Source: Candidatus Pantoea edessiphila
GTDB lineage: Bacteria; Pseudomonadota; Gammaproteobacteria; Enterobacterales; Enterobacteriaceae
Length of the DNA stretch: 64,000 nucleotides
NCBI RefSeq assembly: GCF_002933335.1
Contig: NZ_PDKS01000002.1
Location: forward strand, 1-64,000
Reading direction: 5' to 3'
The notes beneath the pieces are model-generated. The model saw nothing but the letters and a program-made list of their open reading frames with translations, was not told the origin of the DNA and ran no database searches. Made by a program: the position numbers and the translations under genes. Positions 2,332 through 22,794 of this stretch are shown piece by piece (positions within the stretch are counted from its first letter, which is position 1; each line of letters starts with the position of its first letter).

Positions 2332-3651
2332 TTATTTTTTATTCCATAATACTTGCCAACCATATTTGTTATTTGGAATTAATCCGTCATTTGTAATGAA
2401 TAGATTTACTGCGGATATAAGGTTGTCATTATAATATATCAAAGGAATACGATTACGTTCCCAGGGTGGAATATTAAATTTCTGCCATATTTTTTTTATT
2501 TTTAATTTGTTTTTATAGCCAACCAAATAAAAATCACCTCTAGCATAAAATTGAATACTAACTAATTCATGAGACATTGGTAGACGTAATGAATTATTAT
2601 TATAATCAGCTTGAAGAAAACCTAATTTCTCTGGCAATAAGAGAATATTATTTATATTAGGCCATATCATTTTAATGTTTTTTATAGATGATTTAATAAT
2701 TGGTAGACAATAAAGATAATGGCAATATCTACGTATTTCATATCTACCTATTTGTAAGCATGGTTTAGCATCAGTACCTAAAATTATTTTATGATAAATT
2801 AGTTTTAATAACTTGTAAGATGGCATTAACTCCCCTCTTCGGGAAATCCATCTTCTTAATAATGCATAAATTTTTATATTGCTCATTTTCAATAGAGGTA
2901 TTAAATATAAACTTCCATTATTTTGTATAAGATTATTAAGTTGGTTTAATAACAATTCATCAATTAAACGTTCTTGTTCCTTGCATAGTAAACAACTTCT
3001 TGATACAGTTTTTGTAAAATTAGGCCATTTATAAAGTATTTTAGGCAATACAGAATGACGTAAAAAATTACGATCGAAATTTATATTGCTATTACTATCA
3101 TCTTCTATCCATGTAAGATCATGTTTTTTTGCATACTCTTCTATTGATTTACGTGAAAATTCTAAAAAAGGCCTTAATATTTTATTTTTTCCAACTACAA
3201 TTGATGAATGTATAGCAGATAATCCAGCCGGACCACTGCCACGTTTAAGAGCGAGTAGTAATGTTTCACATTGATCATCAAGATGATGAGCAGTTAGTAA
3301 TACTTCTTGATTTTGCAAAGATGATATTAAGGCATTATACCGTTCTTTACGAGCATTAGCTTCTATCCCTTGTTTAGGGTTTTTTTTAATTTTAACGTTC
3401 AATATTCTACAATCTATTTCCCATTTAAAACATATTTCTCTACAATGATTGGCCCAATTATTTGAGTTTTCATTTAATGAATGGTTTACATGTATAGCGC
3501 GTATATTAGATTCAGGATATTTTTTTGTGCATAAATATAAACAATGTAGAAGTACAGTAGAATCAAGTCCTCCACTAAATGCTAACACTATTTTAGAATT
3601 TTTTTTAAGTAAGGAAACAATATTTTCAAAAAACATAGATGGATAACTCAT
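2332..3651 (-). CDS. tilS: tRNA(Ile)-lysidine synthase
   Basis: The enzyme modifies the CAU-anticodon wobble cytidine of tRNA-Ile2 to lysidine, which makes it read AUA. That codon is heavily used in an AT-rich genome. The ATP-pyrophosphatase P-loop SGGLDST lies near the N-terminus, followed by the LTAHHLDDQCETLLL segment and the TilS substrate-binding region. The first ATG is at 3651, giving 439 residues against about 432 in E. coli. A TTG ten codons upstream (3681) is a possible alternative. Neither has a good Shine-Dalgarno sequence. Confidence 0.95.
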   Translation of the reverse strand: MSYPSMFFENIVSLLKKNSKIVLAFSGGLDSTVLLHCLYLCTKKYPESNIRAIHVNHSLNENSNNWANHCREICFKWEIDCRILNVKIKKNPKQGIEANARKERYNALISSLQNQEVLLTAHHLDDQCETLLLALKRGSGPAGLSAIHSSIVVGKNKILRPFLEFSRKSIEEYAKKHDLTWIEDDSNSNINFDRNFLRHSVLPKILYKWPNFTKTVSRSCLLCKEQERLIDELLLNQLNNLIQNNGSLYLIPLLKMSNIKIYALLRRWISRRGELMPSYKLLKLIYHKIILGTDAKPCLQIGRYEIRRYCHYLYCLPIIKSSIKNIKMIWPNINNILLLPEKLGFLQADYNNNSLRLPMSHELVSIQFYARGDFYLVGYKNKLKIKKIWQKFNIPPWERNRIPLIYYNDNLISAVNLFITNDGLIPNNKYGWQVLWNKK

Positions 3652-3768
3652 TATTTTTGTCAATAACAATGGTTTTATCAAATTGAAACCAATGAAATTT
3701 TAGAGTAATTATATCGTGCATTAATCAAATAGCTTTTAAATAATATATTAATTTAATATGTGTTTAAA

Positions 3769-4724
3769 TCAGTTATATCCATAATTCATTAAACGTTGAT
3801 AACGATTGCTTATTATTCTATCAATGCTCAATTTGTCTAAATATTCTAAATCTATTAGCAATTGTCTTTTAAGGTAGTAAGCTATTTTAAATAAATTTCG
3901 ATGTGCTCCTCCTAATGGTTCGCTAATAATACTATCTATTAATTTGAGTTCTTTTAAGTGATTAGCAGTAATACTCATAACTTCTGCTGCTAATGGTGCT
4001 TTATTAATGTTTTTCCATAAAATAGAGGCACAACCCTCCGGTGATATAACTGAATATGTACTATATTCTAACATGTTTACTTTATCACCAATACCAATAG
4101 CTAATGCACCACCAGAACCTCCTTCACCTATAATATTACATATAATTGGTACTTTTAAAATTGACATTGAACGCAAATTATTTGCAATAGCTTCACATTG
4201 ACCTCGCTTCTCAGCACTTACTCCTGGATATGCACCTGGAGTATCTATAAAAGTAATAACAGGCATCTTGAATTTTTCTGCCATTTTCATCAATCGTAAA
4301 GCTTTACGGTAACCTTCAGGCGCAGGCATTCCAAAATTACGAATTATTTTTTCTTTAATTTCTCGACCTTTCTGATGCCCAATTATCATAACTGGACGTT
4401 TATTTAAACGAGAAATACCGCCAATAATTGATTTATCATCAGCGTATAAACGATCACCTGATAGTTCATCAAAATCATCAAATATATTACAAATATAATC
4501 ATAAGTATAAGGTCTTAAGGGATGCCTCGATAATTGTAATATTTGCCATGAATTTAAGTTTGCAAAAATTTTACGAGTTAAATTAATACTTTTTTTTTTA
4601 AATTTTTAATTTCTTCATCAATATTTATGCCTTTATCATACAAATAATTAATTGAGCTTAGTGAATTTATCTTTGCCTCTAGTTCTACTATTGGTTGTTC
4701 AAAGTCTAAATATTTAGGATCCAT
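3769..4724 (-). CDS. accA: Acetyl-CoA carboxylase carboxyltransferase alpha subunit, frameshifted at an A10 tract
   Basis: With AccD, AccA forms the carboxyltransferase that makes malonyl-CoA for fatty acid synthesis. The full product is recognisable from [19 protein letters not shown] at 4724 to [11 protein letters not shown] at 3772, but in two frames. The coding strand has ten A at 4599-4590, around codons 42-45, where eleven are needed. Read literally, translation stops after about 48 residues. With one A added the protein is 318 residues against 319 in E. coli, with no other disruption. The downstream part alone is open from 4389 (206 residues). Conservation on both sides suggests a functional gene rescued by slippage, or a sequencing error. 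The start is 12 bases after the dnaE stop. Confidence 0.9.
4590..4599 (-). other. A10 slippery homopolymer in accA
   Basis: Ten consecutive A on the coding (minus) strand lie exactly at the frame break in accA. Long A tracts allow polymerase slippage, so a share of transcripts would carry eleven A and restore the frame. Such rescue has been described in insect endosymbionts. It is inferred here, not shown. Confidence 0.75.
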
Positions 4725-4736
4725 AATGTACCTGTT

Positions 4737-7700
4737 TTAATTGAACTCAAATTCTATATAGCTATTTCCTAATAGCAACTGTAATTCATTAATTATATTT
4801 CCATCAAGAGAAATTAACCAATTTTTATTAAATATTAATTTTGATTGCATATCTTTTTTATTTACATAAATATTTACGGGAATTGCTCCTAAATTGCTAT
4901 GATTCATTAATTTACTAATCTGATCTAATAATTTACTGTCATATTGAATTCCTGTAATAATTATAGACAATGCACGTACATATTTTAATCGTGCTTGTTG
5001 TATATCCATGATTTCTTGAGCAATTAATTTGACATTAATACCAAAATTATCGATCTTAGTTTGTCCTTTAACTATTAAAATATTATCTTTTTTTAATAAT
5101 GATTGATACTTTTCTAATATTTCTGTGTAAACGATTACTTCTAATCTACCTGTACTGTCATCTAATGTACAAATAGCTAAGCGATTTCTGCTTTTAGTTA
5201 TCATGATTTTTATATCAATTGCCATTCCTACGGCAGAAATTATCCTGCCATTTTGCATTAAATTAGCATCTTTTAAACTAATTCCATTAGAGTAATAATT
5301 AATTTCTTTTAAATAATATTTTATAGGATGACCAGTAAGATATAAACCAAGAGATTCTTTTTCTGCATCAAGTTGTTTTTTTTCAGACCATGGCGCAACA
5401 TTTTTATAATATCTTTTCACTTGTTCTTTTTGATTATTGTCAACTCCGAACATATCAAACTGTCCGGATTCTTGTATATGAGTACTTTGATGTGCAAATT
5501 TAAATGCTTTATCAATTGAACTTATCATTGAAGCACGATTACAATCTAAGCAATCTAGAGCACCAGACATGATTAATTTTTCTATTACTCTACGATTTAT
5601 TTTTTTCATAATAACAACCTTACAAAAATCAAAAAAATTTTTAAAACAACCTTCTTTATTTCTTATATCAATAATCATTTGAATGTGTATTTTACCTAAA
5701 CCCTTAATTGCACCCATTCCATACAAAATTTCTTTTTCTTTGCTAATAAATTCATATAAACTAAGATTTATATCTGGTGGCAGTACCTTGATATTCATGC
5801 GAAAACATTCATCTATTAATTCAACAATTTTTTCCGTGTTATCAATATCTGCAGTCATAGCTGCTGCCATAAACTCAACAGGATAATGAGATTTTAACCA
5901 TAATGTTTGGTATGATATTAAAGCATATGCAGTAGAGTGAGATTTATTAAAACCATATCCAGCAAATTTTTCTAATAAATCAAATATTTTTGTTGCTAAT
6001 ATGACATTAACACCTAATTTTTGCGCACCTTTTATGAAAAAAGATCTTTGATGAGCCATTTCTTCGGGATTTTTTTTACTCATTGCTCGACGTAATATAT
6101 CTGCTTTACCAGGAGTATAACCAGCAAGTACTTGAGCTATCTGCATAACTTGTTCTTGGTAAAGAATAATACCGTAAGTAGATTCTAGTATCGGTTTTAA
6201 AATGTTATGCTGCCAATTAATATCAGGATATGATATAATTTCTCTTCCATGTTTTCTATTAATAAAATTATCTACCATACCAGATTTTAATGGTCCTGGG
6301 CGAAATAGTGCTACTAAAGCAATTATATCTTCAAAACGATCTGGTTTTAACCTCTTAATTAAATCTTTTATACCTCGAGATTCAAGTTGAAATATAGCAG
6401 TAGTCTCTGCACTTTGTAACATATCAAAACTTACTTTATCTTTTAGTGATATTTCATTAATATTAACCAATGGTTTTTCTTGTTTGAGATTCTGAATATT
6501 TACCATTTTTATTGCCGAATTTATTATTGTAAGCGTTTTTAATCCTAAAAAGTCAAATTTAACTAATCCAATATATTCTACATCATTTTTATCAAATTGC
6601 GTAACTTGATTAGCACCATTTTCATCGCAATAAATAGGAGTAAAGTCAGAAATTTTAGTTGGGGAAATAACTACACCGCCAGCATGTTTTCCTATACTAC
6701 GTATAATTCCTTCCAATTTTATTGCTGTATCTATAAGTATTTTAGTATCATCATCTGTTTGATAAAGGTCTAATAATCTCTTTTCATTTAAAAATGCTTT
6801 TTTCAATGTCATTCCTATATCAGAAGGGATTAATTTCGCAATTCTATCTATAAAACCATAAGGATATCCTAATACCCGCCCCACATCTCTAATAACCGCT
6901 TTAGCTGCCATCGTTCCAAAAGTAATAATTTGTGAAACTGCATCTTTACCATATATTTCATTGACATGATTGATTACTTTATCTCTATTATTCATACAAA
7001 AATCAATATCAAAATCAGGCATTGATATGCGCTCTGAATTCAAGAACCTCTCAAACAAAAGATCAAATTTTATAGGATCGATATCTGTAATGTTAAGTAC
7101 GTAAGCTACTAAAGATCCAGCACCAGAACCACGTCCAGGACCTACTGGTATATTATTATCTTTTGCCCATTGAATAAATTCCATAACTATTAAAAAATAG
7201 CTCGGGAAACCCATTTGGTTTATCGTATCAAGTTCAAATTTTAGACGCTTGTAATATTGAACTTTTTTGTTAGTAAAATCTATTGGGTCTTTAAAAAGAT
7301 TTGTAAGTTTATTATCAAGTCCTACTTTTGATTTCTTGATTAAAAAATCTTTTGGACTTATATTTCCTGTAGGGAATTTTGGCAAAAAATGCTTTCCTAA
7401 TTCTAAAGTAACATTACATCTTTTTGCTATTTCTACACTATTCTTCAATGCTTCTGGTATATCAGAAAACAGATTACACATTTCATCTTCACTACGCATA
7501 TATTGTTGCGAACTATAATTGCAAGGACGTTTATCATCATTAATACTCCAACCATTATGTATAGCTACTCTAATTTCATGCGCATAAAAGTCTTGTTGAT
7601 TAACAAAACAGACTTCATTAGTAGCTAGTACAGGAAGCTGTTCATTAATAGATAAATTTACTGCTGCATTTAAGTAATTTTCTTCATCTGGCCGACCTGT

Positions 7701-8216
7701 CCTTATTAATTCTAAGTAATAACGATTAGCAAAATGTTTTTTATAAAAATCCAGACATTTTGTTACTAATGCATTGTTATTTAATAGCAAGCTACAGCCA
7801 ATATCACCTAGACGTCCACCAGAAAGAATAATTAATCCTTCTTTTAATTCACCTAACCAATCTAAATCTATAGTTGGTCCAGCAATTCCATATCCTCTCT
7901 TATAAGCACGAGAAATAAGTAAAATTAAATTATTGTAACCAATATTACTAGAAGCTAAAATGGTAATTTTAGTCAATTTATTGCCAAATAATTTGTTTTT
8001 AACATTAAAATCTGAACCAATAATTGGTTTTATACCAATATCATGAGATTTAGAATAAAATTGTACTAATCCAAATAGATTTGTAAAATCAGTAATAGCA
8101 ATAGAAGGCATGCCTAACAAATAGGCATTTTTTACTAAAGAGTTAATTGTTATCAATCCATCAATAATAGAGTAATCACTATGAACACGTAGATGTATAA
8201 AGCGTGGTATATTCAT
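4737..8216 (-). CDS. dnaE: DNA polymerase III alpha subunit
   Basis: This is the replicative polymerase of the DNA polymerase III holoenzyme, 1159 residues against 1160 in E. coli. The N-terminal PHP domain begins HLRVHSDYS. The catalytic aspartates lie in PDFDIDF near residue 400, with the third in the FDFLGL segment near 555. A beta-clamp-binding motif of the QxxMF type (QFDMF) is near 920, followed by the OB fold and tau-binding C-terminus. The complete length indicates full replicative function. It heads a leftward pair with accA. Confidence 0.98.
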
Positions 8217-9233: not shown

Positions 9234-9680
9234 TTAATGACGAGCACATAACATGGTAGCTTCGCAAACTATTTTTTTATTAACAGTAGCTATACCTTTG
9301 AAACGAGTGATACTGCAACGTGTTTTTTCAAATTTAACCTTTATAATCATTTGGTCTCCTGGAACTACAGGAAGTTTAAAACGAGCATTTTCTATACCCG
9401 CAAAATAATAAAACTCTTTAGGTTTTAATTTACCAATGCTATTAAAAGCTAATATACCTGTCGCTTGAGCCATTGCTTCTAAAATTAGAACTCCAGGAAA
9501 AATATATTTTCCCGGGAAATGACCTTGAAAAAATGGTTCATTAATAGAAACATTTTTTATCGCTCTCAAGTATTGATGTTTTTTTATTTCTAGCACACGA
9601 TCAACTAATAGGAAGGGATATCTATGAGGTAATAATTCCAAAATATCTTCAATGTTTAGAGTATAAATTTCGGTAACCAA
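9234..9680 (-). CDS. fabZ: 3-hydroxyacyl-ACP dehydratase FabZ
   Basis: FabZ dehydrates 3-hydroxyacyl-ACP in type II fatty acid synthesis. The catalytic histidine lies in [13 protein letters not shown] and the catalytic glutamate in [12 protein letters not shown]. The product is 148 residues against 151 in E. coli. The start is TTG at 9680, with AGGA eight bases upstream; from memory the E. coli gene also starts with TTG. The gene stands alone between two deletion sites (lpxD on one side, lpxAB on the other), which suggests selective retention. Confidence 0.96.
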
Positions 9681-12994: not shown

Positions 12995-14347
12995 TTATAG
13001 ATTACTTGTAAATTTTGAAAAATCATTAGATAATGCAATTGTTATTAAGATGATGAGAATACTAAAACCTACCCATGAAAAAATATTATATGCTTGATCA
13101 GATAAAGGTTTTCCTGTTAATTTTTCTATTATCAAAAACAATATATGGCCACCATCTAAAATAGGTAAAGGTAGTAAATTAAATAAACTAATATTAATGC
13201 TAATTAAAGATAAAAAGAACAGGTAATGCATTATTCCAAGTTTAGCTGATGCAGTTGCCCCTTTAGCAATTGTAATCGGACCACTCAAATTATCTAATTT
13301 ATAATTACCATTGATCAAGTTAAATATTGAATCAACAATCATTTTAATGATTTGCCAAGTTTTTATGAGAGATTGTCTTAATGCAGCAAATATATTATAC
13401 CTATGAATAATTTTATAATTTTTAGGAAAAACAGTTTGTGACGTTATTAATATATTGTTTTTAATATTGTTTTGAATAAGTTCATTTGCATCAGTCTTAA
13501 ATTTTAATATTTTATTATTACGATTAATTTCTATTTCTATATTTTTTTTTTGAAAATATTTTACATAATTTATGAAAGGTTGTGAACGCAATAATATATT
13601 GCCATCTAACTTAGTGATAATATCTCCCTCTTTTAAATTATATTTATTTAACATATTTATATCACTAATTTTAGTTACTAAAAAATTTACAATTGGATAT
13701 GGTATAATACCTAATACTAATAATGGATCTCTACGTGGAAGATCAAAATTTAATTTATTTAAGTTAAATTCTTTTTTATAAATAATATTTTCGTTAATAT
13801 TAGCAAATGTTAGTGTAACAGTAGAATTTTTATGTTTAGACATTAATGCCATACGTACCGTATCCCAATCGGGAGTTACAATATTATCAACTTTCTTAAT
13901 TTCCGCTCCAGAATTAATATGTGCCTTTCCTATTACTGAATCTTCTATAACTTTACCAATAACTGGAGCATTCATGGTACCGATTTGAAAAAATAAAATT
14001 GAATATATAAAAATAGCCATTATTAAATTAGCTATAGGACCTGCTAAAATAATAAAAATTCTTTGCCAAATTGGTTTTCTGTTAAAGGTTTTGTGCAGTA
14101 AATGTAGAGGAACTTCACATGCACGTTCGTCAAGCATTTTTACATAGCCACCAACAGGAAATATTGAAACAACAAATTCAGTATCATAAAGATTAAACTT
14201 AAAAATTGATTTACCAAAACCAATAGAAAAACGATTTATCTTTACTCCATAATATCTAGCTACAAAAAAATGCCCTAGTTCATGTACCGTCACTAATACA
14301 CTAAAAGTTATTATAAAAACTCCTATATTCCAGATCACATTTAACAT
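12995..14347 (-). CDS. rseP: Site-2 zinc metalloprotease RseP
   Basis: RseP is an inner-membrane protease that in E. coli cleaves RseA in the sigma-E pathway and clears signal peptide remnants. The zinc site HELGH lies in TM1 near residue 22, and the third ligand region LPLPILDGGH lies near the C-terminus. Two PDZ-like domains lie between. Its 450 residues equal the E. coli length. Whether a sigma-E system remains cannot be judged from this window. Confidence 0.95.
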   Translation of the reverse strand: MLNVIWNIGVFIITFSVLVTVHELGHFFVARYYGVKINRFSIGFGKSIFKFNLYDTEFVVSIFPVGGYVKMLDERACEVPLHLLHKTFNRKPIWQRIFIILAGPIANLIMAIFIYSILFFQIGTMNAPVIGKVIEDSVIGKAHINSGAEIKKVDNIVTPDWDTVRMALMSKHKNSTVTLTFANINENIIYKKEFNLNKLNFDLPRRDPLLVLGIIPYPIVNFLVTKISDINMLNKYNLKEGDIITKLDGNILLRSQPFINYVKYFQKKNIEIEINRNNKILKFKTDANELIQNNIKNNILITSQTVFPKNYKIIHRYNIFAALRQSLIKTWQIIKMIVDSIFNLINGNYKLDNLSGPITIAKGATASAKLGIMHYLFFLSLISINISLFNLLPLPILDGGHILFLIIEKLTGKPLSDQAYNIFSWVGFSILIILITIALSNDFSKFTSNL

Positions 14348-21975: not shown

Positions 21976-22794
21976 ATGCAAAATCTACGAATTATTATTG
22001 AAGATGCTTTTGAAAACAAAAATAATCTAACTATAGAGATAATAGAAGAGGTAAAACATGCTGTTGATCAAACTATAAATTTACTAGATAATGGGATATT
22101 GCGAGTAGCTGAAAAAAAAGAGGGGAAATGGATAACCAATCAGTGGATAAAAAAAGCTATTTTACTTTTTTTTCAAATAACTAATAATAGTTTGATATAC
22201 GGTGCTGAAACAAATTACTTCGATAAAATAAACATGAAATTTTTTAATTGGGATGATTTGAGTTTTCAGCAAAAAGGGATAAGAGTGGTACCACCAGCAT
22301 CAGTAAGAAAAGGAGCTCATATAAAACAGAACACTATAATAATGCCATCATATATAAATATAGGTGCTTTTGTTGATAAAGGTACCATGATTGATACTTG
22401 GGCCACTGTTGGTTCTTGTGCACAAATAGGTAAAAATGTACATATTTCAGGAGGAGTTGGAATTGGCGGAGTTTTAGAACCATTACAATCTAATCCTACT
22501 ATAATAGAAGATAATTGTTTCATTGGAGCACGTTCTGAAATTGTTGAAGGTGTAATAATAGAGGAAGGATCAGTAATATCAATGGGCGTTTATATAGGTC
22601 AAAGCACCAAAATTTACAATCGCAAAAGCGGAGAGATAAGTTATGGTCGTATACCAGCTGGTTCTGTAGTAGTATCTGGCAGTTTACCTTCTAAAGATCA
22701 TGAGTACAATTTGTATTGTGCTATAATCGTTAAAAAAGTGGATAAAAATACTCGTGCCAAGGTAAGTGTTAATGAAATATTACGAACTATTTAG
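21976..22794 (+). CDS. dapD: 2,3,4,5-tetrahydropyridine-2,6-dicarboxylate N-succinyltransferase
   Basis: DapD catalyses the succinylation step of the lysine/meso-diaminopimelate pathway, which supplies both lysine and the peptidoglycan cross-link residue. The left-handed parallel beta-helix hexapeptide repeats run from about residue 105 to 235 and include [20 protein letters not shown] and [10 protein letters not shown]. The product is 272 residues against 274. MurE in this window carries the matching meso-DAP specificity motif. Confidence 0.97.

Follow-up and report, generated by a model that had tools for sequence, protein, structure and literature searches.

The accA gene, which encodes a subunit of acetyl-CoA carboxylase and is essential in Escherichia coli, appears in Candidatus Pantoea edessiphila as two pieces separated by a single missing base in a run of ten adenines, and this raises the question whether full-length AccA can still be produced and by which route. 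A first-pass annotation of the region had described the split as an isolated case and had proposed slippage during transcription as the rescue. Here, the locus was re-read in the window, i.e., the whole stretch of 64,000 nucleotides under study, and compared among six genomes (G000-G005) of the Candidatus Pantoea edessiphila genus-level group, symbionts of Edessinae stink bugs, with G000 as the source of the window.

Structure of the accA locus

On the minus strand (3769-4724), accA starts with an ATG at position 4724 and runs into ten A at 4599-4590 (Table 1). Frame 0 ends after 48 codons with a stop reaching position 4578; past the tract, the -1 frame provides 273 open codons before a stop ending at 3769. 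Re-reading of both frames and the presence of two Pfam AccA pieces bear out the original description of a gene that is one base short at this tract. The single-base break sits inside a long A run, the setting in which slippage is recognized in symbionts. When the complete G000 genome (840,997 bp on 11 contigs; GC content of the accA contig 0.278) was searched with the Pfam AccA model, two pieces only were obtained, both from the split gene (positions 30-310, E 1.3e-131, and positions 1-40, E 4.8e-4), which speaks against a second accA, a possibility that the first-pass annotation had raised as an objection to rescue. The downstream piece scored 465 bits against the NCBIfam accA model with its cut-off of 319. 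The retention of fabZ, noted before as a sign of active fatty acid synthesis, was confirmed by an intact gene in the window, and accD and accC are likewise intact in all six genomes. A damaged second biotin-carboxylase-like stretch with stops occurs in G001 (G001:C5:252197-253512) and is absent from the five other members of the genus. A promoter scan returned 13 matches vs. 11.7 expected and was thus uninformative; as a side observation, two terminator-like matches fall inside accA, vs. 0.5 expected.

Table 1. Positions of accA parts, neighboring genes and a comparison tract in the window.
Feature	Position	Strand	Evidence
accA upstream frame, AccA N-terminus, 48 codons + stop	4578..4724	-	Pfam AccA positions 1-40, E 4.8e-4; third-position-biased changes in 2/3 split pairs
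A10 tract, point of frame change; downstream frame is -1 relative to start	4590..4599	-	A10 at same codons in G001 and G002
accA downstream frame, AccA core, 273 codons + stop	3769..4590	-	NCBIfam accA 465 bits; third-position-biased changes, no indel in six species
dnaE, intact, upstream neighbor of accA	4737..8216	-	
tilS, intact, downstream neighbor of accA	2332..3681	-	
fabZ, intact; indicates that fatty acid synthesis is retained	9234..9680	-	
rseP (12995-14347), comparison tract, in-frame A10	13542..13551	-	not kept as A10 in four other species

Conservation of the break and selection on both halves

Three of the six genomes (G000, G001, and G002) contain a split accA, each with exactly A10 at identical codons, and the gene is intact in G003, G004, and G005, where the homologous place carries no run of seven or more A, A7, and A5, respectively. 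As the exactly-A10 split recurs in two other members of the genus, it is more than a product of chance, and accA can no longer be viewed as an isolated case: three species share its break, which is one of many in the genus. In a tree of 107 orthologues (40,484 columns), calculated without outgroup, G000, G002, and G001 are set apart from G004 and G005 with a support of 100; in a rooted five-gene tree, G000, G001, and G002 form a clade with a support of 68. Given the identical A10 split in three species grouped by the trees, the simplest reading is that one A was lost once, presumably in their common ancestor. The break has been kept across species divergence in these three of six genomes, and we regard it as a genuine, conserved frameshift in an essential gene.

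Differences between the three pairs of split species were counted by codon position. Over the 273 downstream codons they amount to 27/13/84, 38/21/94, and 42/22/100, a third-position bias with p between 5e-15 and 1e-12; over 42 upstream codons they amount to 5/3/12, 11/5/17, and 11/5/14, with one-sided p of 0.013, 0.023, and 0.09, the bias being weakest in one pair. The downstream frame has equal length and no indel in all six species, and only 12-21% of about 90 contig genes have a ratio below that of downstream accA in the three split pairs. Purifying selection thus acts on both halves of accA among the split species, least visibly on the 42 upstream codons (p 0.09), and the gene is free of damage other than the tract break.

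Frame breaks along one contig

For a single 150-kb contig, all frame breaks between orthologues of five species were recorded with no preselection of tracts. Those located at runs of A8 or longer concerned accA (three species), dusA of G002 (A10), pdxA of G004 (A9), and a yhbP-like gene of G005 (A8), and all lacked a single base. Where runs were shorter or absent, breaks went in both directions; among them, an lptB-like gene of G000 is broken beside A6 and is one base short. This last break (G000:C5 ~126,923, L219, outside the window) occurs in G000 only and affects the Walker B region. Further breaks away from long runs were met in dusA and other damaged genes of G000, and G001, G002, and G005 added a small number of weak or spurious cases; an apparent cluster in four species was dismissed as the shadow of an antisense frame. 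The dusA gene has several damaging changes in G000 (G000:C5 ~143,470-144,430) and the A10 break in G002 (G002:C7:8663), is open in G001 and G005, and gave no match on the contig in G004.

Broken and in-frame coding runs numbered 0 and 520 for A7, 1 and 225 for A8, 1 and 79 for A9, and 4 and 8 for A10, the in-frame counts being drawn from 107 five-way orthologue groups and the broken ones from the whole contig; five of the eight in-frame A10 tracts belong to dapD. This gene (window 21976-22794) has in-frame A10 in G002, G004, and G005, with two tracts each in G002 and G004, and none in G000 and G001. In-frame A9 tracts were common to both genomes in 8 of 25 comparisons between G000 and G002 and in 6 of 32 between G000 and G001. 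Since in-frame dapD A10 and in-frame A9 tracts are also kept, the persistence of a tract alone is weak evidence for rescue.

One-way breaks at long tracts in six genomes

A screen of the six genomes for runs of at least ten A gave 142 tracts, of which 141 were examined with their flanks (G003:C6:438 was left out). Twenty-three of them break a recognizable gene, and all 23 breaks, in 16 genes, are one base short. A further 59 tracts are in frame (57 by script and two by hand), and the remaining 59 are non-coding, lie at edges or have no assignment. If both directions were equally likely, a uniform direction in 16 of 16 genes, each counted once, would have a probability of 2^-16. Breaks were found in several species for accA (three), rluD (three), fdhD (three), and ygfA (two), and in one species each for nadK, ispE, dusA, hemW, pqiC, murC, era, holB, holA, pdxB, lptF, and a small rhodanese gene. 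G000 has five of them, i.e., accA, nadK, rluD, fdhD, and the rhodanese gene. One break in the opposite direction, in ygfA of G005 at A9, was met outside this screen; A9 tracts were screened on the census contig only.

The script had assigned 23 tracts to a class requiring one additional base and six to a class requiring two. On review by hand, a T16 tract in G005 (L269) with a sub-threshold Pfam match only was excluded from the former class. Of the latter, acnA (G002) and holD (G003) were re-placed as in frame and L171 of G000 was moved to the one-base class, its true upstream frame being one base short, while L273, L277, and L305 of G003 gave no Pfam match when the upstream piece (L273, L305) or both pieces (L277) were scanned. 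L171 is the small gene with a rhodanese domain (Pfam E 6e-4, just under the cut-off), which we take to be thiI. The names of the 23 breaks derive from an HMM match of one fragment each, several under the curated cut-off; the other fragment was assessed visually or by comparison with intact orthologues (accA, rluD, nadK, ygfA, fdhD). For pqiC, the 53 residues encoded upstream of the tract gave no match in Pfam.

Caveats apply to two of these genes. In G000, nadK is broken at A10 (G000:C4:27822; L159, L330) and is intact in the five other genomes; an ATG overlaps the frame-0 stop (ATGA), so that reinitiation and expression in two pieces are possible. The A10 break in fdhD (G000:C9:27203, G001:C10:27527, G002:C11:20409) precedes the conserved core and may therefore need no rescue; an intact fdhD occurs in G004, and none was detected in G003 or G005. 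Tract instability through loss of mismatch repair was rejected on the basis of mutS, the one gene looked at, which is intact in all six genomes.

Recurrence of the accA site outside the genus

A family-wide search gave AccA matches in 251 of 295 genomes. Four genomes were chosen by eye among the matches listed for low scores or doubled matches: accA is split at the same site in G078, elsewhere in G280 and G164, and near its 3' end in G308, with a frame change close to the codons of the A10 site and no poly(A) run. The site was then compared in 127 accA loci, which include some genomes twice and exclude the window's own locus. The longest A runs at the site codons are A13 in L354 (G078), A11 in L123, and A10 in L126, L121, L113, and L114; L121, L123, and L126 are in frame through the site. 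Four of the 127 loci have no open frame through it, namely L113 (G001), L114 (G002), L354 (G078), and L355 (G308, GC 0.52). In G078, a 0.6-Mb genome from a different genus of the same family, accA is thus broken at A13 in the same codons and in the same direction; as this is a single genome, a sequence error is possible there.

Possible routes to full-length AccA

A break shared by three species, together with continued selection on accA, implies that the full protein is probably made by slipping on the run. We consider it likely (probability about 0.7) that RNA polymerase does so: it would slip on the A run of an accA DNA that lacks one A and would add one A in a share of the transcripts; these would encode full-length AccA, and unaltered transcripts would yield a peptide of 48 residues. 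That the cell produces full-length AccA, and that slipping occurs during transcription and not on the ribosome, we infer from the sequence comparison. The earlier interpretation is partly supported: the break is real and inherited, in a gene under continued selection, and transcriptional slippage is retained as the likeliest rescue, although a -1 slip of the ribosome would give the same protein.

Such a ribosomal slip has a precedent in dnaX of E. coli, where a -1 frameshift on an A run is aided by stimulators and both products are used. The accA tract resembles dnaX in its A run and in the -1 relation between the frames, and dnaX-type frameshifting on A runs is discussed in a review (PMC5009743). 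A10 contains the heptamer A AAA AAA in the phase needed for a -1 shift, and identical full-length AccA would result; the uniform direction of the remaining breaks also agrees with this route. Nevertheless, we consider it improbable: the sequences downstream of the tract in the three split species have no common RNA structure (z -0.58, 0.27, and -1.53, with differing folds), no Shine-Dalgarno-like stimulator was seen upstream by eye, and seven A would be enough, yet the breaks on the contig cluster at A10. Unlike dnaX, accA has no stimulator that was found, and its short product of 48 residues has no evident use.

Readings without any rescue, or without full-length AccA, fare considerably worse. 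An assembly error hiding an in-frame A11, an objection already raised in the first-pass annotation, would fit the data insofar as undercalling would produce one direction everywhere. It is very unlikely because the break is common to three genomes, because coverage of 86-940x is published for genomes of the group, with newer strains sequenced by Illumina MiSeq (PMC8032781), and because rluD was called as A11 and in frame in G005 vs. broken A10 in G000, G002, and G004 (G001 has a shorter, in-frame run at this site); in-frame A11, A13, A14, and A16 were also called elsewhere in the genus. It is even harder to regard accA as a young pseudogene being lost. Frame 0 does end at 48 codons and dusA shows that tract-broken genes can sit in a decaying set, but both halves of accA and the selection on them were retained after the species split, as were accD, accC, and fabZ. 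Two separate AccA peptides, the downstream one arising by reinitiation, seem least credible of all. A long open frame does exist downstream, but its first ATG, GTG or TTG occurs at 4389, 67 codons beyond the tract and within a conserved region, and the ATT that G000 and G002 have close to the break is ACA in G001.

In Buchnera, homopolymers contained 151 of 157 transcription insertions and only 16 deletions (PMC5574713), and such an insertion bias predicts that tracts one base short survive; that study observed no transcription error by which a frame was restored. In known endosymbiont cases, 12-50% of transcripts are corrected according to a review (PMC5009743). Deletion-biased slippage during DNA replication could generate the same direction without rescue or filter. 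We advance only tentatively, and in view of the caveats for nadK and fdhD, that a sizeable set of genes in the genus, some of them essential, may be permanently one base out of frame, that the insertion bias of RNA polymerase may filter the survivors such that only one-base-short tracts persist, and that the Leu-Lys-Lys-Lys-Ser site of AccA may be a recurrent trap where AT pressure creates a long A run and where two or more symbiont lineages have suffered independent breaks.

Relation to known systems and implications

Poly(A) frameshifts rescued by transcriptional slippage have been described for Buchnera and Blochmannia (Tamas 2008; Wernegreen 2010; PMC3017870), with eight such genes, including dnaX and dnaG, in B. 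vafer (PMC3017870) and four to seven in other Blochmannia (PMC4389277). The present case shares with them an AT-rich reduced symbiont genome, a break of one base within a long A run with intact flanks, the occurrence of some breaks in several species and the involvement of essential functions. It differs in the stink-bug symbiont lineage, in affecting an acetyl-CoA carboxylase subunit with identical A10 in three species, in a break direction that proved one-way at A10 and longer when counted across six genomes, and in the break at the same site in G078. The titles and abstract openings of the literature searched did not mention slippage in accA of this symbiont group, and a word search of the main text of PMC8032781 for accA, frameshift, and homopolymer was negative. 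The kind of phenomenon is thus already known; what this case adds is a new lineage, a conserved break in an essential gene, a uniform direction of breaks and a site that recurs.

For the annotation of reduced genomes this means that tract-broken genes need not be pseudogenes. Any AT-rich symbiont can serve to test the one-way direction: breaks that an added base repairs should survive and those that require loss of a base should not. If the proposed slippage is true, three species would share an enzyme subunit that relies on a copying error in each generation, which would clearly exemplify error-dependent inheritance of function.
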